Notes: generated by a model not told the origin, from the letters alone. 64,000 nt of DNA from Methanocella arvoryzae MRE50 (GCF_000063445.1 NC_009464.1:1550001-1614000), one strand, 5' to 3'. Counted from the stretch's first letter, positions 45,869 through 55,628 are shown. Program-made: numbers and translations.

Positions 45869-46894
45869 ATGACTGGCCTGTCGAAAATTACCCCCGTCAC
45901 CCTGGTGCTGCTTCTGATCATGACCGGGCTGAGCCCTGCATTTGCCGTAAACTCAGTTGAACTGGTCAGCCCCCCGCCCATGGATCCGGCATACCCGAAC
46001 CATGGTTCGGTCACCGGCAGAGTGATCACACAGAATGCCGGCCAGGGCATACCAGGAGCGTACGTGGCGATCGTGAACGGGGCGAACATATCCCAGGCGT
46101 ACTACGAGGGGCAGGCGGATGAGGACGGCTATTTCCAGTTCCCCCATGTCAATAACACTGTGGCAGGGGACTACCCCCGTCCCGTCTACCGGGTTTATGC
46201 CAGCCTGGCAGGATATGGCGAAGGCATGTCCGACCTGTTCGGCGTCGGAGAAAGATCGACGACCAGGGCTGATGTCGTCATAGCTGACTCTGGCAGGGCC
46301 TCGTCGGGCTTCGTCGTCCAGCACGTGCCCATGCCGGATGAGGTCAGGCTGAGCGCGCACCCTGACACGATCATGGCAGGAGGCAACCTGTCGGTGATTA
46401 CGGCTCAGCTGTACCTGAACGGCGCTCCGTATTCACGGTCGGGGGTCGTGATTACGTTCTTCGCCGATAACGACACGATCGGATACCTGCCTGCTGAAAA
46501 GAAGATAGCGACCGACTCGGACGGCCGGGCTACCATTAACCTGACCTCAGGCAATACCTCCGGCCAGGTCAACGTGACAGGGTATAGTAAGATCGGCATC
46601 AGCCGGAACATCACAGGCTCCTGTACGGTCTGCGTTGAGGGAACTACGGGCAGGGAGGTGTCGGTTACCGATATAAACGATACGGAAGCCTCTAACGTCA
46701 CTGAAATAGCGAACGGTAGCCACGAGAACGTTACATCGGAGACTACGCCAGGAAACCTCACGGAGGCCGACATCTCTGCGGCGCCAGAACCCACGCCTTC
46801 CTCGACAACGGGACTTTTATACCCGGCACTTCTGATACTACTGGTTGCAGTAGCAGGCTTTACCGTCTATATGCTGGCGTTCAGGAAAAAATAG
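45869..46894 (+). CDS. Surface protein with carboxypeptidase-regulatory-like and Ig-like domains
   Basis: A 341-residue exported protein. Residues 1-26 are a signal peptide ending PAFA. Residues 40-140 form a carboxypeptidase-regulatory-like beta-sandwich (VTGRVITQNAGQGIPGAYVA). A second, Ig-like (Big-type) domain follows (VRLSAHPDTIMAGGNLSVIT and SDGRATINLTSG). After a Thr/Asn-rich, heavily N-glycosylatable linker, one helix and the tail RKK anchor the C-terminus. It is the first of four adjacent surface-protein genes. It likely builds the cell envelope or binds ligands; no enzyme signature is seen. Confidence 0.7.
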   Translation: MTGLSKITPVTLVLLLIMTGLSPAFAVNSVELVSPPPMDPAYPNHGSVTGRVITQNAGQGIPGAYVAIVNGANISQAYYEGQADEDGYFQFPHVNNTVAGDYPRPVYRVYASLAGYGEGMSDLFGVGERSTTRADVVIADSGRASSGFVVQHVPMPDEVRLSAHPDTIMAGGNLSVITAQLYLNGAPYSRSGVVITFFADNDTIGYLPAEKKIATDSDGRATINLTSGNTSGQVNVTGYSKIGISRNITGSCTVCVEGTTGREVSVTDINDTEASNVTEIANGSHENVTSETTPGNLTEADISAAPEPTPSSTTGLLYPALLILLVAVAGFTVYMLAFRKK

Positions 46895-47071
46895 CCGATC
46901 AGCAGCCAGATGTCACATCATGCGGCCGGCCGGGCTATCCGTTATTTTTTTGGCCCCGGCCCTTTTCCTCCACACTTTTCGGGAAACGACGCCGCCAGCC
47001 TGTTAAATATCATGTAATTATTATATAAATGTTTAGCGTAGAGTAGCTTGTCGGATAAGCGGAGGCAGACG

Positions 47072-47968
47072 ATGAGCAAAGCGATCAATGTTACTCTAAT
47101 TACAGCGTTGATAGTCGTAACCGTTTGGGGCAGCATTATGCCCCACGCGTTCGCCGAGGAAACTTCGGGCAGCGTCAGGGGCTGCATCACAGTGAACGGC
47201 GTTCCGCAGCACGGCGTTTACGTCAGCGGCTTCGGCCTTTTCGACGTCACAGATGAGCAGGGCAGATACGAGCTGCCGTCCATCCCTAATGGCAGCAAGG
47301 GCACCATTACTGCAACATTTGCCGGATACTCGGTGGAAAGCGGAGAGCTGACATTCCTGAATCCGCCCTACCCCGAAGTGAACCTGAACATCGTCATGCC
47401 AGTAGTAACGCCCACCCCCACGCCCGTTATAACACCCACCCCAATTATTACCCCTGCTCCCACCATCACACCCACGCCCACCGTTACGCCAACTCCGACA
47501 ATTACACCTACGCCAACAGCCACGCATGCTCCGACCGCAACACCTACCCCAACTATAACACCCACGCCCACACCTACACCTACAATTACTCCTTCGCCAA
47601 CAGCCACGCCTGTTCCGACCGATACGCCTGTCGCCGGATACTCATTACCTGTGGGAACGGTGGTGTGGCCTCCGGCTGACATCTCGTGGGCCATGACAAG
47701 GGATAACGCAGGCGGAAACAATACGTTAGCACTGCAGGATAACCAGTCAAATGCCACCACTGCTGCTGAGGTAACGGATGCAGGCCTGTCCGGAGGCGGT
47801 TCTGCTCTGGCCCAGGACGCCGGCGCTCTATCATGGAAGCCAAATACCAGTTCTGGAACTGCTGCCAGTTTACCAGCCCTGCCTGTGGATATCCCGCTGT
47901 TCGCGCTGATCGTTGCCTGTGCAGCCTACGTCGGGTTTGTGGCCTACTCGGTGATAAGAAAGGGCTGA
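47072..47968 (+). CDS. Surface protein with carboxypeptidase-regulatory-like domain and long Thr-Pro linker
   Basis: About 298 residues. Signal peptide at residues 1-27 (ending PHAFA), then one carboxypeptidase-regulatory-like beta domain ([20 protein letters not shown] and [17 protein letters not shown]). A linker of about 80 residues is built from TPTP, TPTI and TPAPT repeats and is likely O-glycosylated. The C-terminus has one helix with [21 protein letters not shown] start at ATG 47072, which has GGAGG upstream; a TATA box (ATTATATAAAT, about 47018) precedes it. The C-terminal helix is like that of the next gene. Confidence 0.7.
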
Positions 47969-48129
47969 AAGCTGCGGTACTACCGCCGCCGGCCTAATAT
48001 ATTGGGTTTTTATTTAATAACATTTATAAAGTTGTTTTATACTAAATGTTCGTTAGCTAACGTATGTCTGCGACAGCGCATGCTGATCTTTGACTGCTTC
48101 AGCGGTCCGTGTGCTAAGGGAGGTTCATT

Positions 48130-48963
48130 ATGATCAGGGCAAGATATGTGACACTACTTATCGTCGGGGCACTTCTTCTCGGCACACTGGCCCAGCCGGC
48201 GGCCATCGCCAAACACACCGGCTACGACGGCGACGGCAGCCGCCTCGTAAGCTTCCTTACATCTCTGATCACCGACCATGAACCGGACGATAGAGAAGAG
48301 ACCAAAGTAAAGGACAGAGAAGACAAAGATAAAGAGAAGAGGGAGGAGAAGGACAACCACGACAGGAAGGGGGATGAAGAGACCAAAGTTAAGGACATGG
48401 GGGACATAGACGACGGTGAGGACGATAAGGAAGAGACCAAAGTAAAGGACGGGAAAGACAATGCATATAAGGATAGGCAGAAGGGCAGGAAAGGGCCCCG
48501 AGTAACACCGGCTCCAGCCCCATCGACTGCTCCTTCGCCTACGCCCACACCTGCCGCGACACCAGTGCCAACACCAGCGCCTACACCAGCGCCCACTCCA
48601 ACATCTACACCGGTGCCGGCACCAGCCCTGGCTCAGGAGCCGCCCGGCTTACGGGCACCCAATACGCCTCCGCTTAGCATCTCTTACCGGGAGCTGAACC
48701 CGCCCCCTCTGGAGTCAGAAACTGAAGCGGCGGATGACCAGGACAATTTGACCGGGAATCGTACTGCGGTAAGGGCGGACACGGTTTTGCCAGACGGTGC
48801 GTTGCTGGACGCCGTGAATCTCCCCGGCTGGAAAGCTAACGTGAGCGCCCAGCCTCCGGCATATGCAAGCGTGGACTTGCCAGCCGGAGCGCTTCTTTTT
48901 CTGACCCTCGCCTGTGCGGCGATAGTGGGCTACGTAGCTTATTCCATGATCTGGAAGGGGTAG
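48130..48963 (+). CDS. Surface protein with charged repeat region and Pro-rich linker
   Basis: A 277-residue protein. Signal peptide in residues 1-28, then about 75 residues of alternating Lys, Asp and Glu containing three EETKVKD repeats. This acidic-basic stretch could form a single charged alpha-helix or bind cations. A Pro/Thr/Ala-rich linker follows, and the C-terminal helix reads LTLACAAIVGYVAYSMIWKG, close to the previous protein. No carboxypeptidase-regulatory-like domain is seen here. GGGAGG lies upstream of the ATG. Confidence 0.65.
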   Translation: MIRARYVTLLIVGALLLGTLAQPAAIAKHTGYDGDGSRLVSFLTSLITDHEPDDREETKVKDREDKDKEKREEKDNHDRKGDEETKVKDMGDIDDGEDDKEETKVKDGKDNAYKDRQKGRKGPRVTPAPAPSTAPSPTPTPAATPVPTPAPTPAPTPTSTPVPAPALAQEPPGLRAPNTPPLSISYRELNPPPLESETEAADDQDNLTGNRTAVRADTVLPDGALLDAVNLPGWKANVSAQPPAYASVDLPAGALLFLTLACAAIVGYVAYSMIWKG

Positions 48964-48975
48964 TGGAGGCATGAA

Positions 48976-49509
48976 TTGACAGGAATATGGAGGGTGGCAA
49001 CTGCCGTAATACTGGTACTGCTTACATGCAGCGCGGTAGCACAGGTGGCTGCGGCAGATCAGCCCAGCATAATTCTGGGGCGGGTCACCGTCGACGGCCA
49101 TCCCCAGGAAAACGTCGTCGTCACAGGCTTCGGCTCGACCGCCATCACCGGGCCTGACGGCATGTACGTCCTGAAATTCCAGTCAGCCGGAGCAGGCGTG
49201 ATCAACGCCACCTACGACAACCACACTGCAAGCAGCGGCCTGATAGTCACCCCCACCAGCCCGGTGATCAGGGTAAAAGACCTTAACATCATCATTAATG
49301 GCATCGGCGCAGGCGCCATGACGGATAGCTCCTCCGCCGCTCATTCCCTCTACACCAAAGTCCTCGCCCCGACAGGCAATATCGATGACCTGAAGCCCGC
49401 AGGCCAGCAGCATCAGCCCTTCGACATTTCCAGATCCGGCATATACATCGCAGGAGCGATCAGTATTCTGTTTATCTGCTTCCTGGCCTACGTGATGATC
49501 AGAAAATAA
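48976..49509 (+). CDS. Surface protein with carboxypeptidase-regulatory-like domain
   Basis: A 177-residue protein starting at TTG 48976, with GGAGG seven bases upstream and only 12 bases after the previous stop. It has a signal peptide (ending VAAAD), one carboxypeptidase-regulatory-like beta domain (ILGRVTVDGHPQENVVVTG, ITGPDGMYVLKF), a short linker and a C-terminal helix ending YVMIRK. It is the shortest of the four surface proteins and lacks the Pro-rich linker. The tight spacing suggests the last three genes are co-expressed. Confidence 0.7.
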   Translation: MTGIWRVATAVILVLLTCSAVAQVAAADQPSIILGRVTVDGHPQENVVVTGFGSTAITGPDGMYVLKFQSAGAGVINATYDNHTASSGLIVTPTSPVIRVKDLNIIINGIGAGAMTDSSSAAHSLYTKVLAPTGNIDDLKPAGQQHQPFDISRSGIYIAGAISILFICFLAYVMIRK

Positions 49510-50311: not shown

Positions 50312-50683
50312 TCAGGTGAACTGCTCGATAATCGCTCTTACACTCCGGTTAAACTCAGGTGTGGTACATATAAGGAGGACATAGGCCCTGCCCTTTTCAG
50401 TTAAAGTATAGGTCGTGACATTAGAATTAATATCTCCGGACAGCCGGGCGACCAGGCCTCTGGCAAGCAGCGAGCTCTCAGCATTATACCGCTTTCCCAT
50501 GCCCCACATAGCCCCCCTGACATGGGAGGGCCACGTGCCTACTACATTCGTGATCTGCTGAATATTGCGGGGCTCGCCGCAGACGAACAGGTAGACGAGA
50601 ATTTTCATACGAACGACGCTCTTTCGCATTGCATACATGATCTGGCAGTAGTCCTCATAATCGCTTTCTTCACCCATTGGCAT
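50312..50683 (-). CDS. Small winged-helix transcriptional regulator
   Basis: A 123-residue protein with a single winged helix: SVVRMKILVYLFVCGEPRNIQ leading into a recognition helix near WPSHVRGAMWGMGKRY, then TTYTLTEKGRAYVLL as the wing. It belongs to the archaeal type of small wHTH regulators; ligand and targets are unknown. It is divergent from the secreted-protein operon at 51079 and is the best candidate for its regulator. Start ATG at 50683 or 50677. Confidence 0.65.
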   Translation of the reverse strand: MPMGEESDYEDYCQIMYAMRKSVVRMKILVYLFVCGEPRNIQQITNVVGTWPSHVRGAMWGMGKRYNAESSLLARGLVARLSGDINSNVTTYTLTEKGRAYVLLICTTPEFNRSVRAIIEQFT

Positions 50684-51078
50684 CAGTTTGGTGTATAAAA
50701 GTAGGTAGCCATATAATTTATGTCACAAAACGTTAACGATTAAATAATTATTTTAAAAGCGGCATTTTCAGCCCTTGGAGGAAAACGACGGCATACGATT
50801 TTACGGCTTTTAACAATTGCAAAAGTATCTGCCCTCCCCGATATAAATACCAGAGAAGCCATAACAAGTACATGCAACCCGAGCGCATGATGTAATGCTT
50901 GCCACGAGAGTTGCACATCAAAAGGAGGGGATTAAAGAGACATAAAAGCGATGTGAGTGCATTTGAGATGCTACGAATAGGCCGGAAGGCTCAGGCCGCC
51001 AGACAGAGGTCCAATATCGGCCTGGCAGGCGTAAGCCATCCGAGACAAAAGACTGAATACCCCCAAAGGAGGAATTCA
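50684..51078. promoter_or_regulatory. Divergent promoter region and long leader of the secreted-protein operon
   Basis: A TATA box (GATATAAAT, about 50858) directs a rightward transcript with a predicted leader of about 190 bases. The leader holds two strong ribosome sites, AAAAGGAGGGG (about 50921) and AAAGGAGGAA (51065). The second serves the ATG at 51079; the first has no good start after it, though a 16-codon frame runs from 50895 across it. A leftward TATA-like box (about 50713) serves the regulator gene. Confidence 0.45.
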
Positions 51079-51546
51079 ATGCTTAAGTACAAACTACCAT
51101 TAGTGATCATATCAGCATTATTACTTTCGGTGATTGCAAGCGGAAACGCGTTTGCATACTCCTGGAGTAGTAATGACGGAATAGAAAAATCAAGAGCAAA
51201 CGACTTCAACAGTCCGCAGTGGAGAAGTACCATCAGTCAGACGATCTCCGTCAGCAACGGCGTAACCCTGTCGTGGGGAAACGAATGGAAGAATGACTAC
51301 TCCGCTCCACTGTTTTACAAATGCCAGTGGAGTTCTGGATGTGCAGGTGGCGGCTCCTTCGAATCTTCAGGCACATTGCCAGCGTATTACGGTGTAAGTA
51401 GTACGGTGTCTATGTATTCCGGTGCAGTGAATATGCCCTACTCGGGATACACTGATACGTTAAACAACAACCACCTGTATAAAGACGATAACCCGTACTG
51501 GAAGGGTACCGACTTCAACACAGCGCAGCGTATGACCAGATCTTAA
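51079..51546 (+). CDS. Secreted protein of unknown function
   Basis: A 155-residue protein. Residues 1-25 are a clear signal peptide (YKLPLVIISALLLSVIASG, cleaved after AFA). The 130-residue mature part is rich in Ser, Tyr, Trp, Asn and Gly, with two Cys (FYKCQWSSGCAGGG) that could form one disulfide. No helix or anchor is seen, so it is probably released. I recognise no family. AAAGGAGGAA precedes the ATG. T-rich runs follow the stop, so its mRNA may be made in excess over the permease genes downstream. Secreted proteins placed before ABC-2 permeases are often exported effectors or bacteriocin-like; that is inference. Confidence 0.7.
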   Translation: MLKYKLPLVIISALLLSVIASGNAFAYSWSSNDGIEKSRANDFNSPQWRSTISQTISVSNGVTLSWGNEWKNDYSAPLFYKCQWSSGCAGGGSFESSGTLPAYYGVSSTVSMYSGAVNMPYSGYTDTLNNNHLYKDDNPYWKGTDFNTAQRMTRS

Positions 51547-51548
51547 TA

Positions 51549-51572
51549 TTTTTTCTTTTTTCTTTTTTCGGA
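51549..51572 (+). terminator. T-rich terminator between the secreted-protein and permease genes
   Basis: Three runs of six T lie within 24 bases, which is an archaeal intrinsic terminator pattern. Partial read-through would give less permease than secreted protein. Confidence 0.55.
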
Positions 51573-51580
51573 GGCTAAAC

Positions 51581-52426
51581 GTGAGCAACTTGGGTAGTAT
51601 CGCAAAAAAAGAGTGCGTTGACCTTATCAACAGTAAAATTGTACTGCTGGGCGCTGCGGTGTTGCTACTTTACGTCGGCGTAAACCTGTACGAATATCAT
51701 CATGCCCTTTCGAGCGGCCTGATAAAAAACATAGAGTTCAGTAGTTCCGTTCTTTCAGCCATGTGCACGCTGACGCTTTACGGCAGCTTTTTCTCCGTTA
51801 TCATCGGGTTCTCCAGCATAGCTAACGAAAAGAAAAATCACGCCCTAAATACTCTAATCGTCAAGCCGCTGTACAGAGACACGATCATAAACGGAAAGCT
51901 CCTCGGGGCCTGCTGCTTTATGTCTCTCGTTTTCGGGTTCGCCCTGCTCATATACGTATCGGGGCTGCTCATGCTTTCCGGGGAATATATCTCTACCTTC
52001 ATCCTCGACTTCGCGGCAAAGATCGCTTTTGTCTACCTGCTGTCGCTGATCTACGATCTCATCTTTGTCACGCTTTCGATGACCGTCGCGATCATCGTAG
52101 ACAAACAGGCGATTGCGTTAATCATATCCACATTGATAGTTGAGATGTTCGATTTCATAGTCGGTGTTAACGTAACTCAAACCATATCTCACATAATAAA
52201 TTCAATTATGCCAGTAAACATGGATGCAATTGAATACTTCATCGTCCTGTTATCACCGAAAGGAGTTATAGGCTTAATAATTAATAACAGTAACATTTTC
52301 AGCCCGATTTACGGCGTCTGTGATGTTATCGGATCGTTGAGCAGTTACGTCATCAGGCTATGCCTTTACCTCTTTTTATCGGTCATAGTATGCTACATGG
52401 TATTTATGAGGAGGGATATAGTATGA
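51581..52426 (+). CDS. ABC-2-type permease, subunit A
   Basis: A 281-residue membrane protein with about six helices and the ABC-2 signature NEKKNHALNTLIVKPLYRDT followed by IINGKLLGACCF. GTG 51581 follows GGAGG. It overlaps the second permease by four bases. No nucleotide-binding protein is encoded nearby, so the ATPase must lie elsewhere or is missing. Permeases of this type (NosY/GldF-like) move peptides, lipids or polysaccharides. G+C is lower than in core genes. Confidence 0.8.
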   Translation: MSNLGSIAKKECVDLINSKIVLLGAAVLLLYVGVNLYEYHHALSSGLIKNIEFSSSVLSAMCTLTLYGSFFSVIIGFSSIANEKKNHALNTLIVKPLYRDTIINGKLLGACCFMSLVFGFALLIYVSGLLMLSGEYISTFILDFAAKIAFVYLLSLIYDLIFVTLSMTVAIIVDKQAIALIISTLIVEMFDFIVGVNVTQTISHIINSIMPVNMDAIEYFIVLLSPKGVIGLIINNSNIFSPIYGVCDVIGSLSSYVIRLCLYLFLSVIVCYMVFMRRDIV

Positions 52427-53247
52427 CGGGCAATCAAAATGTAACGGGCATCATAGCAAAAATAGCCCTCAACGAGCTTGGCAGGATATATAAGAGCCCA
52501 TTTGTGATCATTATATACATAATATTTATTGTTAACATTTTTTTAACTGGTTACGGAAGCCAATTTTTTGATCAAGCATGGGTAAGCCAGCCAGGAGAAG
52601 GGGATGTGTTTATACGCATTGCTATCGGAGACGTATTTTATTACACATCGTTATTTTGCGCCATCACCGCCATGTTTTTTGGTGTATTATCAGTGCTTGA
52701 CGATAAAAATTCGCACGCTTTGAACGTATTACTCTCCAAACCGGTATATCGCCGAGACGTCCTGATTGGAAAATTCGTCGGCATCAACCTATTTTCGATT
52801 ATTCTAATCACTGTCACTCTGGCAGGCTCGTTATTAATGCATATGCTATTCAACGGGATACCCGGCTTGATGGACGAATTATTGATCAGGGCTGTATCGT
52901 TGATCGCGATACTTTCGATGGAGTGTGCTCTGGTGTCCGGGATCACCATGCTGTTCGGGCTGGCGTGTAAAAATTTGCTCGAGGGAGTTGCCGTTACGAT
53001 AACGTTCTTATTCGTCGAATGGGAAGGGAGCCTGACCAGGTACCTGGGGTCGTTTAAGATACTGAGCCCGCACGAGCTGTATTTTACGATTTTTCACGTC
53101 GACAAAGCTAAGCTGCTTATCGATACGACGGTGCCGTACTATGTCTGGCTCAGCGCTGCAGCCCCGTATATTTTATTCATGCTGCTGGAGATCATCGCCA
53201 TCGTAGCGTTAAATTGCATCATCTTCTCCAGATCAGACGAGGTGTAA
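52423..53247 (+). CDS. ABC-2-type permease, subunit B
   Basis: A 274-residue membrane protein related to the gene just upstream, with the same signature DDKNSHALNVLLSKPVYRRD and VLIGKFVGINLF. About six helices. ATG 52423 overlaps the previous stop (ATGA) and has AGGAGG upstream; a longer frame from 52360 is unlikely. The two permeases would form a heterodimer. Five bases separate it from the RCC1 gene, so the three are one operon. Confidence 0.8.
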   Translation: MTGNQNVTGIIAKIALNELGRIYKSPFVIIIYIIFIVNIFLTGYGSQFFDQAWVSQPGEGDVFIRIAIGDVFYYTSLFCAITAMFFGVLSVLDDKNSHALNVLLSKPVYRRDVLIGKFVGINLFSIILITVTLAGSLLMHMLFNGIPGLMDELLIRAVSLIAILSMECALVSGITMLFGLACKNLLEGVAVTITFLFVEWEGSLTRYLGSFKILSPHELYFTIFHVDKAKLLIDTTVPYYVWLSAAAPYILFMLLEIIAIVALNCIIFSRSDEV

Positions 53248-53251
53248 GACC

Positions 53252-54607
53252 ATGAGTAAGACATATCTTTGTGTTATCGGAAAAATACTATGCATCACAG
53301 TATTGCTATCTGCATTCGTCATCCTGATGCCTGCCACGGCATTTTCAAAGGTGGTGTCGATCGATGCACAAGCGGATGTTTCTGTCGCCCTGAATGACAA
53401 TGGTACGGTGTTCATGTGGGGCGATACCAGGGATGGCACGTTCCGGTCTGATGAACCGGTCTTAGTCGACATCACTAACATAACTGCGGCTTCTGCAGGC
53501 GTTTTTAACGCGTTGTTCCTCAAGGACGACGGAACCGTGTGGGCGATTGGTGACAACGAATACGGCCAGCTAGGAGACGGGACGAGAGTCGACAGTTCGA
53601 AAGCGGTTCAAGTACAGTGCCTGAGCGAGGTGGTTGCCATTTCCGCAGGCGATTGCCACAACCTGGCGCTGAAGAGAGACGGGACCGTATGGGCCTGGGG
53701 GTGTAATCTTTTCGGGCAGATTGGTAACGATAATGTCGGCCATGACGAATTGACACCGGTACAAGTCCCAGGACTGTCCGGCGTCAAAGAAATTTCTGCA
53801 GGCTACATGGGCTCTAAAGCCATTACAGGTGACGGCACCGTATGGGCCTGGGGCATAAACGAATACGGTCAGATCGGGGACGGGACTAAAGAGATCAGGA
53901 GCCTGCCAGTCAGGATATCCATCAATAACGTATCTGCGATAGATACCGGGGAATACGGCACTTCGATAGCTTTGAAAAGCGATGGATCCGTGTGGACATG
54001 GGGTAACAATGGGCAGGGTCAGCTCGGAGATCCTGCGGAAGACACCTTAAGCATGATGTTGCCCGTATCAAACTTAGGCAGCGAGAGGCTTGTCCCCGGG
54101 AAAACGGGTGGCCTGTACAACGTCACCTCAGTCTCTGCAGGTGCCCGGAACTCGCTGGCCGTGAAAGATGATGGTACGCTCTGGGTATGGGGTGAGAACC
54201 AGGAGGGCCGCTTTGGCAACGGGCTGAAATTCGGCCGGGATAGTATCCGGCCCGTGATAGTACCTGGTTTAAACAATATAGTATCGGTCAAGGCAGGAGC
54301 TTCGTATATGCTTGCACTGTCAGATGATGGGACGGTATATGGATGGGGAAAGAACATTTTCGGCGCTGTCGGTAACGGTGAAAGATCAGAAACTGTCGTC
54401 AAGCCTTTGATAGTAATCAAAGGCACAGTCGATTCACAGGATTCTAATACTACGGAACTCCCCGTGACTGAGGATAAACTATCTGTAGACAGTAACGATG
54501 GAAGTAGTCAGTCACAGCCAGATTTGAACCTTGGCCTTGCAGGTATGGCCGTATTTATTGTCACGGTTCTCCTCGGCATAGTAATTCTCATACGGACGAG
54601 AAAATGA
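53252..54607 (+). CDS. Surface-anchored RCC1-repeat beta-propeller protein
   Basis: A 451-residue exported protein. The signal peptide covers residues 1-30. About seven RCC1-type repeats follow, each with DDGTVWAIGDNEYGQLGDGT-like turns (DGTVWAWG, DGSVWTWGNNGQGQLGD, DGTLWVWGENQEGRFGNG). They close a seven-bladed propeller outside the cell. A Ser/Asp-rich linker, a helix (AGMAVFIVTVLLGIVILI) and the tail RTRK anchor it. Because it is in one operon with two ABC-2 permeases, it may dock the exported substrate. Confidence 0.8.
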   Translation: MSKTYLCVIGKILCITVLLSAFVILMPATAFSKVVSIDAQADVSVALNDNGTVFMWGDTRDGTFRSDEPVLVDITNITAASAGVFNALFLKDDGTVWAIGDNEYGQLGDGTRVDSSKAVQVQCLSEVVAISAGDCHNLALKRDGTVWAWGCNLFGQIGNDNVGHDELTPVQVPGLSGVKEISAGYMGSKAITGDGTVWAWGINEYGQIGDGTKEIRSLPVRISINNVSAIDTGEYGTSIALKSDGSVWTWGNNGQGQLGDPAEDTLSMMLPVSNLGSERLVPGKTGGLYNVTSVSAGARNSLAVKDDGTLWVWGENQEGRFGNGLKFGRDSIRPVIVPGLNNIVSVKAGASYMLALSDDGTVYGWGKNIFGAVGNGERSETVVKPLIVIKGTVDSQDSNTTELPVTEDKLSVDSNDGSSQSQPDLNLGLAGMAVFIVTVLLGIVILIRTRK

Positions 54608-54875: not shown

Positions 54876-55628
54876 CTACTTTCTGCCCGGGTGCATCTCC
54901 TCTAAGGTTGCGTCGTGGTCATCCACGTTGAAGTAGTACATGCGGGGCGAATAGTGAGAATCCCGGAGCTTGCGGATCTGCAGCACGTCCCGGGGATTGT
55001 CCTCCATGTCCACCTTGGAAACCCAGATTACCCCGTCCACGATGTGCTCCAGCGCCTTGACCAGCTCGGGCCTATGCGCTCCCATGTGAATCGTAAACAG
55101 AGAAGTGGTGCCGTTGTTCTTCTGGGTGGCCATCTGGTGGTGGATGTAGTGCAGGATGGCCCGCTCGGAGTCGCTCGACAGCAGCAGCGTCGTCAGCGAG
55201 TCCACGATGCCGCGCAGGTTGTTGTACGGCTCGACCTCGGCCGTCGCCTGCTTGACCGCGTCCCTGACCTCGTTGATGTTGGACAGGTCGTGGCACACGT
55301 ACTTCCACTTGGAGACGAACTCTCCCCACCCAAAGGCATCGGTGAAACCATCGATGACGATCAGCTGCCCGTTGGTGATGTGCTCCTCCGGCTCCAGCCC
55401 GAAGGTGCTCAGAGAGTTGATGATCGCCTGGGGCGGGTGCTCCATGTTGAACAGGTAACAGTACTCGTTATTCAGCAGGCCCTCCGCGACGAACTTGGTC
55501 TGCAGGATGCCCGACCTGGCGCCCGTGTCCTCTTCCAGCAGGATCAGCGAGCCTCTCGGGATGCCCCCGTCGAGAGCGTTGTCAAGGTCAGCGATACCGA
55601 AGCTGGCGCGGTTCTTGATCTCGGTCAT
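54876..55628 (-). CDS. KaiC-like RecA-fold protein with a degenerate Walker A
   Basis: A 250-residue single-domain RecA/KaiC-like protein. The fold starts with the usual GIADLDNALDGGIPRGSLIL, but the P loop reads EEDTGARSGIL and lacks the Lys-Thr/Ser that binds ATP phosphate. A Walker B-like DSLTTLLLSS follows near residue 147, and a late strand ends at LRDSHYSPRMYYF. It is probably a non-hydrolysing or sensory relative of archaeal KaiC/GvpD-type ATPases. It sits alone between a surface operon and a lipoprotein gene. Confidence 0.75.
   Translation of the reverse strand: MTEIKNRASFGIADLDNALDGGIPRGSLILLEEDTGARSGILQTKFVAEGLLNNEYCYLFNMEHPPQAIINSLSTFGLEPEEHITNGQLIVIDGFTDAFGWGEFVSKWKYVCHDLSNINEVRDAVKQATAEVEPYNNLRGIVDSLTTLLLSSDSERAILHYIHHQMATQKNNGTTSLFTIHMGAHRPELVKALEHIVDGVIWVSKVDMEDNPRDVLQIRKLRDSHYSPRMYYFNVDDHDATLEEMHPGRK

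Follow-up and report, generated by a model that had tools for sequence, protein, structure and literature searches.

A permease locus of Methanocella arvoryzae as a probable satellite of a modular ABC system resembling NosFY

We propose that the locus at positions 50312-54607 of a 64-kb window of the Methanocella arvoryzae MRE50 genome (the whole stretch of DNA analysed, whose coordinates are used below) is one satellite unit of a modular ABC system resembling NosFY, whose units would share an ATPase and carry surface cassettes that can be exchanged. We put the probability of this complete layout at about 0.7. The two permeases of the locus, PermA and PermB, would form a heterodimeric membrane core that uses an ATPase encoded elsewhere in the genome (about 1.543 and 2.036 Mb), together with the surface protein SurfC. 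Their ATP-driven motion would be relayed to the surface beta-propeller of the same unit, much as NosD is driven by NosFY. A small secreted protein, predicted to be beta-rich, would leave the cell by the Sec route, a poly-T terminator would allow it to be made in excess, and proteins of the EarA type would regulate the units. If this is correct, several methanogen transporters that seem to lack an engine are not orphans, and a single ATPase feeds many variable surface units. A direct genetic test would be feasible in a tractable Methanosarcina with a single ATPase gene.

The locus and its copies in the genome

All five genes that an earlier note had placed at this locus were confirmed in the same positions and order, and their reading frames are intact. 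A winged-helix regulator of 123 aa (50312-50683, minus strand), with an EarA-like domain well above the Pfam gathering score (PF07381, E = 2.8e-29; 101 bits vs. 22), is divergent from an operon on the plus strand. The first gene of the latter (51079-51546) encodes a secreted protein of 155 aa, SEC, with a Sec-type signal peptide (hydrophobic stretch at residues 8-26) and a mature part of ca. 129 aa. It is followed by a poly-T region (51547-51580) with three runs of six T (51549-51572), a candidate archaeal terminator. Next come two ABC-2 permeases of the NosY family, PermA (281 aa, 51581-52426; PF12679, E = 2.9e-16) and PermB (274 aa, 52423-53247; PF12679, E = 3.5e-16), the start of the second overlapping the stop of the first in an ATGA. 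The last gene (53252-54607) codes for a secreted beta-propeller of 451 aa (PF25390; PF13540 and PF00415, E about 1e-55), with an N-terminal signal and a membrane anchor, a C-terminal transmembrane segment at residues 429-447; its seven PF13540 and six PF00415 stretches place it in the RCC1 family. A scan of this unit and nine related loci with Rfam gave no match. Just upstream (45869-49509), four neighbouring genes encode secreted surface proteins with C-terminal anchors, and some of these proteins have Pro/Thr-rich stalks and CarboxypepD_reg-like domains.

The genome (3,179,916 bp in one contig, G000:C1) contains eight twin-permease units, located at about 1.406, 1.541, 1.602 (the unit of the window), 1.931, 2.024, 2.033, 2.296, and 3.116 Mb. 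They were counted by a PermB search and by reading the neighbourhoods, so that the counts rest on profile searches and retrieved stretches. An RCC1 propeller is encoded 3' of PermB in six of the eight, with a surface protein of 277-280 aa in its place in the other two; the secreted gene is present in six units and missing in two. Nine of the ten PF07381 matches of the genome sit at units of the system. The RCC1 genes that we found are all directly behind a PermB, with the sole exception of a lone one at 1.271 Mb (L062:7024-8583; G000:C1 about 1.2715 Mb), which has no twin permease and whose neighbours look by eye like biotin genes of the BioY and BirA types. The earlier reading of a coherent unit is supported and the gene order recurs. 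The genome has eight variable versions of this surface machine, and the apparently engine-less cluster is one of them. A literature search of limited scope found no description of a twin-permease/propeller system, in line with the previous remark that this was not a known one; the one hit for RCC1 combined with Methanocella and ABC transporters has RCC1 only as the name of a strain.

ATPases encoded away from the unit

Neither an ABC ATPase gene nor a relic of one was found in the 64 kb of the window, where the nearest gene for a nucleotide-binding protein (54876-55628, minus strand) encodes a KaiC-like ATPase, not an ABC one. The genome has only two intact cognate ATPase genes (G000:C1:1543466 and 2035861), each beside another, paralogous unit and at a distance of 57 kb and about 430 kb, respectively; the nearer of them lies ca. 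5.6 kb beyond the left edge of the window. In both cases an operon divergent from the unit encodes the ABC ATPase (ABC_tran plus DrrA1-3_C) and SurfC, a surface protein with CarboxypepD_reg and NEW3 domains that was detected in none of the 393 genomes of the phylum outside the genus at E <= 1e-30, only weaker NEW3 relatives being found elsewhere. The two intact ATPases are 95% identical, while the permeases adjoining them share only 26-27%, and cognate ATPases in general are 66-95% identical among themselves vs. 36-39% to the two other ABC-2 ATPases compared. Copy numbers (eight permease pairs vs. two ATPases) and conservation together make it very probable that the ATPase is shared among units. 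Two counterpoints deserve mention, namely that the 95% identity may come partly from recent gene conversion, and that other ABC ATPases of the genome could serve these permeases. Sharing of this kind has been described for sugar importers, as in the MsmK system of Streptococcus suis (PMC4519317), and for NosY-type systems we found no description. Like the MsmK systems, the units have fewer ATPases than permease sets, and one ATPase would energize several membrane cores; unlike them, they combine permeases of the ABC-2/NosY type with surface propellers.

A third copy of the ATPase in the genome (L024:10544-11938; G000:C1 about 2.0265 Mb) breaks off after residue 121, with a DDE transposase gene behind it, and neither its remainder nor a SurfC was found in that stretch. 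In the sister species Methanocella sp. PtaU1.Bin125, one locus (L027) is a single operon with the order SEC-PermA-PermB-RCC1-ATPase-SurfC, and at another (L028) the ATPase is divergent from the unit. The closest relative of the window's unit is a further locus of this organism (L026, on contig C26; PermA grouping support 97/91), with identities of 38% for the secreted protein, 38% for PermA, 35% for PermB, and 45% for RCC1. Beside it (L026:8599-8926) there is an ATPase relic, reduced to residues 3-62 and 261-312 by an internal deletion of about 199 residues, on a contig that also carries an intact ATPase. The locus had been described as one without an ATPase, and its reading as a system was to be given up if close relatives proved to carry an ATPase gene next to the unit, so that it had merely disappeared at this locus. 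As a description of the window, the absence of an ATPase stands. It does not hold for the system, because ATPases adjoin paralogous units, belong to the operon at L027, and have left a relic at L026, which is the pattern of adjacency and loss that had been named as refuting it; despite the loss beside the window's unit, the ATPase is still encoded at other places of this genome.

The permeases themselves also speak of an ATPase. In PermA, 13 of the 23 highly conserved columns fall within 32 residues (76-107; p = 2e-8) that form the loop between TM2 and TM3, and the same loop is conserved, more weakly, in PermB (p = 0.005). By analogy with the ABC-2/NosY topology this is presumed to be the cytosolic contact with the ATPase, and it is kept in units with and without an adjoining ATPase gene. 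That the system works with no ABC ATPase at all, the literal reading of the earlier note, fits the content of the window and is hardly credible when cognate ATPases adjoin paralogues and relatives and the presumed contact loop is conserved. One could also imagine a decaying copy, which lost its ATPase and no longer works, and for which the relic beside the closest relative and the truncated copy in the genome might be taken as precedents. However, the five reading frames are intact, the loop has been retained, and units without an adjoining ATPase are common in two families, so that we regard decay as very improbable.

Permease pairs and variable cores

In the permease tree, first- and second-position genes separate cleanly, the latter in a clade of their own (support 100/99), and the branching is largely mirrored between PermA and PermB partners. 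By this tree, PermA and PermB are inherited as partners. A counterpoint is the moderate agreement of their distances within Methanocella (Mantel p = 0.02, rho 0.26). Viral contigs contained no relatives of PermA.

The PermA profile aligned from end to end with NosY (7o0y_D; E = 5.1e-10), and that of PermB matched the same chain (E = 9.8e-6); at E <= 0.001, neither profile had any other match in PDB. With NosDFY, the maturation system of nitrous oxide reductase (NosY PDB 7o0y), the units share NosY-family permeases, a surface protein with a repeat fold, a candidate for a secreted client, and a NosF-like ATPase, here probably acting in trans. There are also clear differences. The permeases of NosDFY are a homodimer, whereas those of the units would be a heterodimer, and in the place of NosD, a family absent from our Pfam scan, there is an RCC1 propeller; the two folds are unrelated, which is a counterpoint to the analogy. 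The families of the copper client NosZ and of the chaperone NosL were not among the unit's genes in the same scan. Besides, the ATPase is not encoded with the permeases in the window and would be shared by many units, and the cassettes are variable and present in multiple copies. A cofactor or folding machine in the strict NosDFY sense, whose ABC motion loads or matures a secreted client at the surface, could be defended on the grounds that, among solved structures, only NosY is related to the two permeases, and that client, permease, surface platform, and ATPase co-occur in the sister species. Nevertheless, the secreted proteins have no conserved Cys, His, or Met site, the genes of the unit include no copper chaperone, and the client itself varies strongly and is in many cases absent; we consider such a machine unlikely.

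The tandem units L020 and L024 differ in the whole core. Their flanks are 96-98% identical in DNA, including on one side the regulator, the start of the ATPase, the promoter, and the signal peptide, and on the other the propeller anchor and the downstream genes. The 3.4-kb core between them, with the mature secreted protein, PermA, PermB, and the propeller, is about 43% identical, and its DNA identity of about 40-50% is the level of a forced alignment. One breakpoint coincides with the signal-peptide end, the other with the beginning of the propeller's C-terminal anchor. The core of L024 is similar to the one of L025 (66% in DNA). The pattern can be explained either by replacement of the block or by an old core that had diverged and whose flanks underwent gene conversion, and under both the secreted protein, the permeases, and the propeller stay together. 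In this tandem pair, and with support elsewhere, the variable part consists of these four components, and the constant one of the regulator, the ATPase, and SurfC. If blocks are replaced at domain borders, this would point to a surface function that diversifies, perhaps against competitors or viruses, although here we are speculating.

A parallel situation was found when the PermA profile was searched across 393 genomes of the phylum. Beyond Methanocella, strong matches came from many genomes of one family (f3), which we take to be the Methanosarcinaceae on the assumption that genome G383 is M. acetivorans C2A, and from one genome of another (f30). The other two searched genomes of the window's family (G002 and G003) were without such permease pairs. 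In Methanosarcinaceae, the loci begin with the secreted protein and a WD40/PD40-like propeller, followed by two permeases in a row, a NEW3 protein, and the ATPase, often with a membrane-anchored HTH regulator and a P160 protein nearby. Permeases come in even numbers in this family, their pairs are adjoined by WD40-like propellers in the loci read, and the secreted protein is missing at many of them. The six genomes counted have one cognate ATPase each for 1, 1, 2, 3, 4, and 6 permease pairs; in G383 the single ATPase gene lies at G383:C1:1815800-1816759. First- and second-position permeases separate within each family, and the Methanosarcinaceae pairs group apart from those of Methanocella in a tree whose root is unsure, which suggests that the permeases were duplicated separately in the two families. 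It is tempting to see in all this a new class of ABC machine at the archaeal surface, with a single ATPase that would energize many exchangeable cassettes, each with a permease heterodimer, a surface propeller (RCC1 in Methanocella, WD40-like in Methanosarcinaceae), and often a hypervariable secreted protein, with block swaps from signal peptide to anchor and a layout that arose at least two times. We give this generalization somewhat less than an even chance. Triads of an ATPase, a single NosY-like permease, and a NEW3 protein (L030, L031, L091, L094, L102, and L109) have a related ATPase, permease, and NEW3 surface protein. They differ in that the single permease is larger, there is no adjoining propeller and no small secreted gene, and the ATPase is adjacent in all loci read.

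The secreted protein and the control of expression

SEC has no relative in Pfam, NCBIfam, or PDB, and its homologues adjoin other units. Nine secreted homologues had no Pfam or NCBIfam match, known bacteriocin families such as the lactococcin 972-like one included. An AF2 model from three sequences predicts, at low confidence (mean pLDDT 45), a beta-rich protein. Profiles of the secreted proteins of Methanocella and Methanosarcinaceae align only at the signal-peptide end. Our suggestion that the propeller/permease complex has the secreted protein as its client or ligand is a tentative one, about which we have real doubts; it may not be a substrate, because two of the eight Methanocella units and many Methanosarcinaceae pairs do without it.

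The units also bring to mind the immunity system of lantibiotics, LanFEG, in that two unlike small ABC-2 permeases, PermA and PermB forming distinct clades, are encoded next to a small secreted product and would work with one ATPase, here in trans. The product could then be a bacteriocin-like toxin against related archaea, the ABC-2 unit, energized in trans, a means of self-protection, and the propeller a device to catch the toxin. In favour of this are weak matches to MutE/EpiE and SagH, the rapid divergence of the mature protein, with its swapped core, and the units without a secreted gene, which resemble orphan immunity loci. However, MutE reached E = 0.28 and 10.5 bits vs. a cut-off of 145, and SagH was far below its cut-off, with no significant match of the LanE type, no lantibiotic, modification, or processing genes, and no match to a bacteriocin family. 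Moreover, the units add a propeller and a NEW3 protein, and the homologue at L028 is anchored to the membrane at its C-terminus, unlike a diffusible toxin. We believe that a bacteriocin is improbable, and return to the modular NosFY-like system.

A run of at least five T was present in eight of the nine gaps between secreted gene and permease in Methanocella, vs. 5 of 26 control gaps (Fisher p = 0.0004), and runs of six or seven T in seven of eight such gaps in Methanosarcinaceae. The poly-T after the secreted gene would act as a terminator with partial read-through, and its recurrence lends support to the earlier idea of an abundant product with membrane parts made at low level. In Pyrococcus furiosus, poly-T behind the main archaellin tunes an operon controlled by EarA (PMC10665913). 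As in that archaellum operon, there is an EarA-family regulator and a presumably abundant first product, then poly-T and downstream parts at lower level; the differences are the ABC permeases in the unit and the absence of archaellum genes nearby.

The promoter of the regulator (50684-50760, minus strand) has a motif, TTAACG-N4-GTGACA, directly 5' of a TATA-like box. We rejected this motif as an operator specific to the units, given that it also occurs at unrelated genes (16 matches vs. 9 for the reversed control). In the form TTAAC-N5-RTGASA followed by a TATA box, it is seen in the window at 50700-50740 and in G000:C1 at 1338177, 2585385, 3012885, and 3065040, that is, at several units and at other genes, one of them for a surface protein, and might be the operator of a wider regulon. 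The leader before the window's own secreted gene has no significant hairpin (z = -1.4); strong ones (z from -3.8 to -7.6) are found in the 5' leaders at L020:9254-9310, L023:9230-9302, and L026:8034-8112. Finally, in the two families a secreted P160 protein is repeatedly encoded beside ABC units next to membrane-anchored winged-helix regulators of the P267 type (L020:3290-5523, L027:6619-7829, L030:8245-10042, L145:3277-4448, and L152:11035-12223), and the two are possibly a sensor pair.
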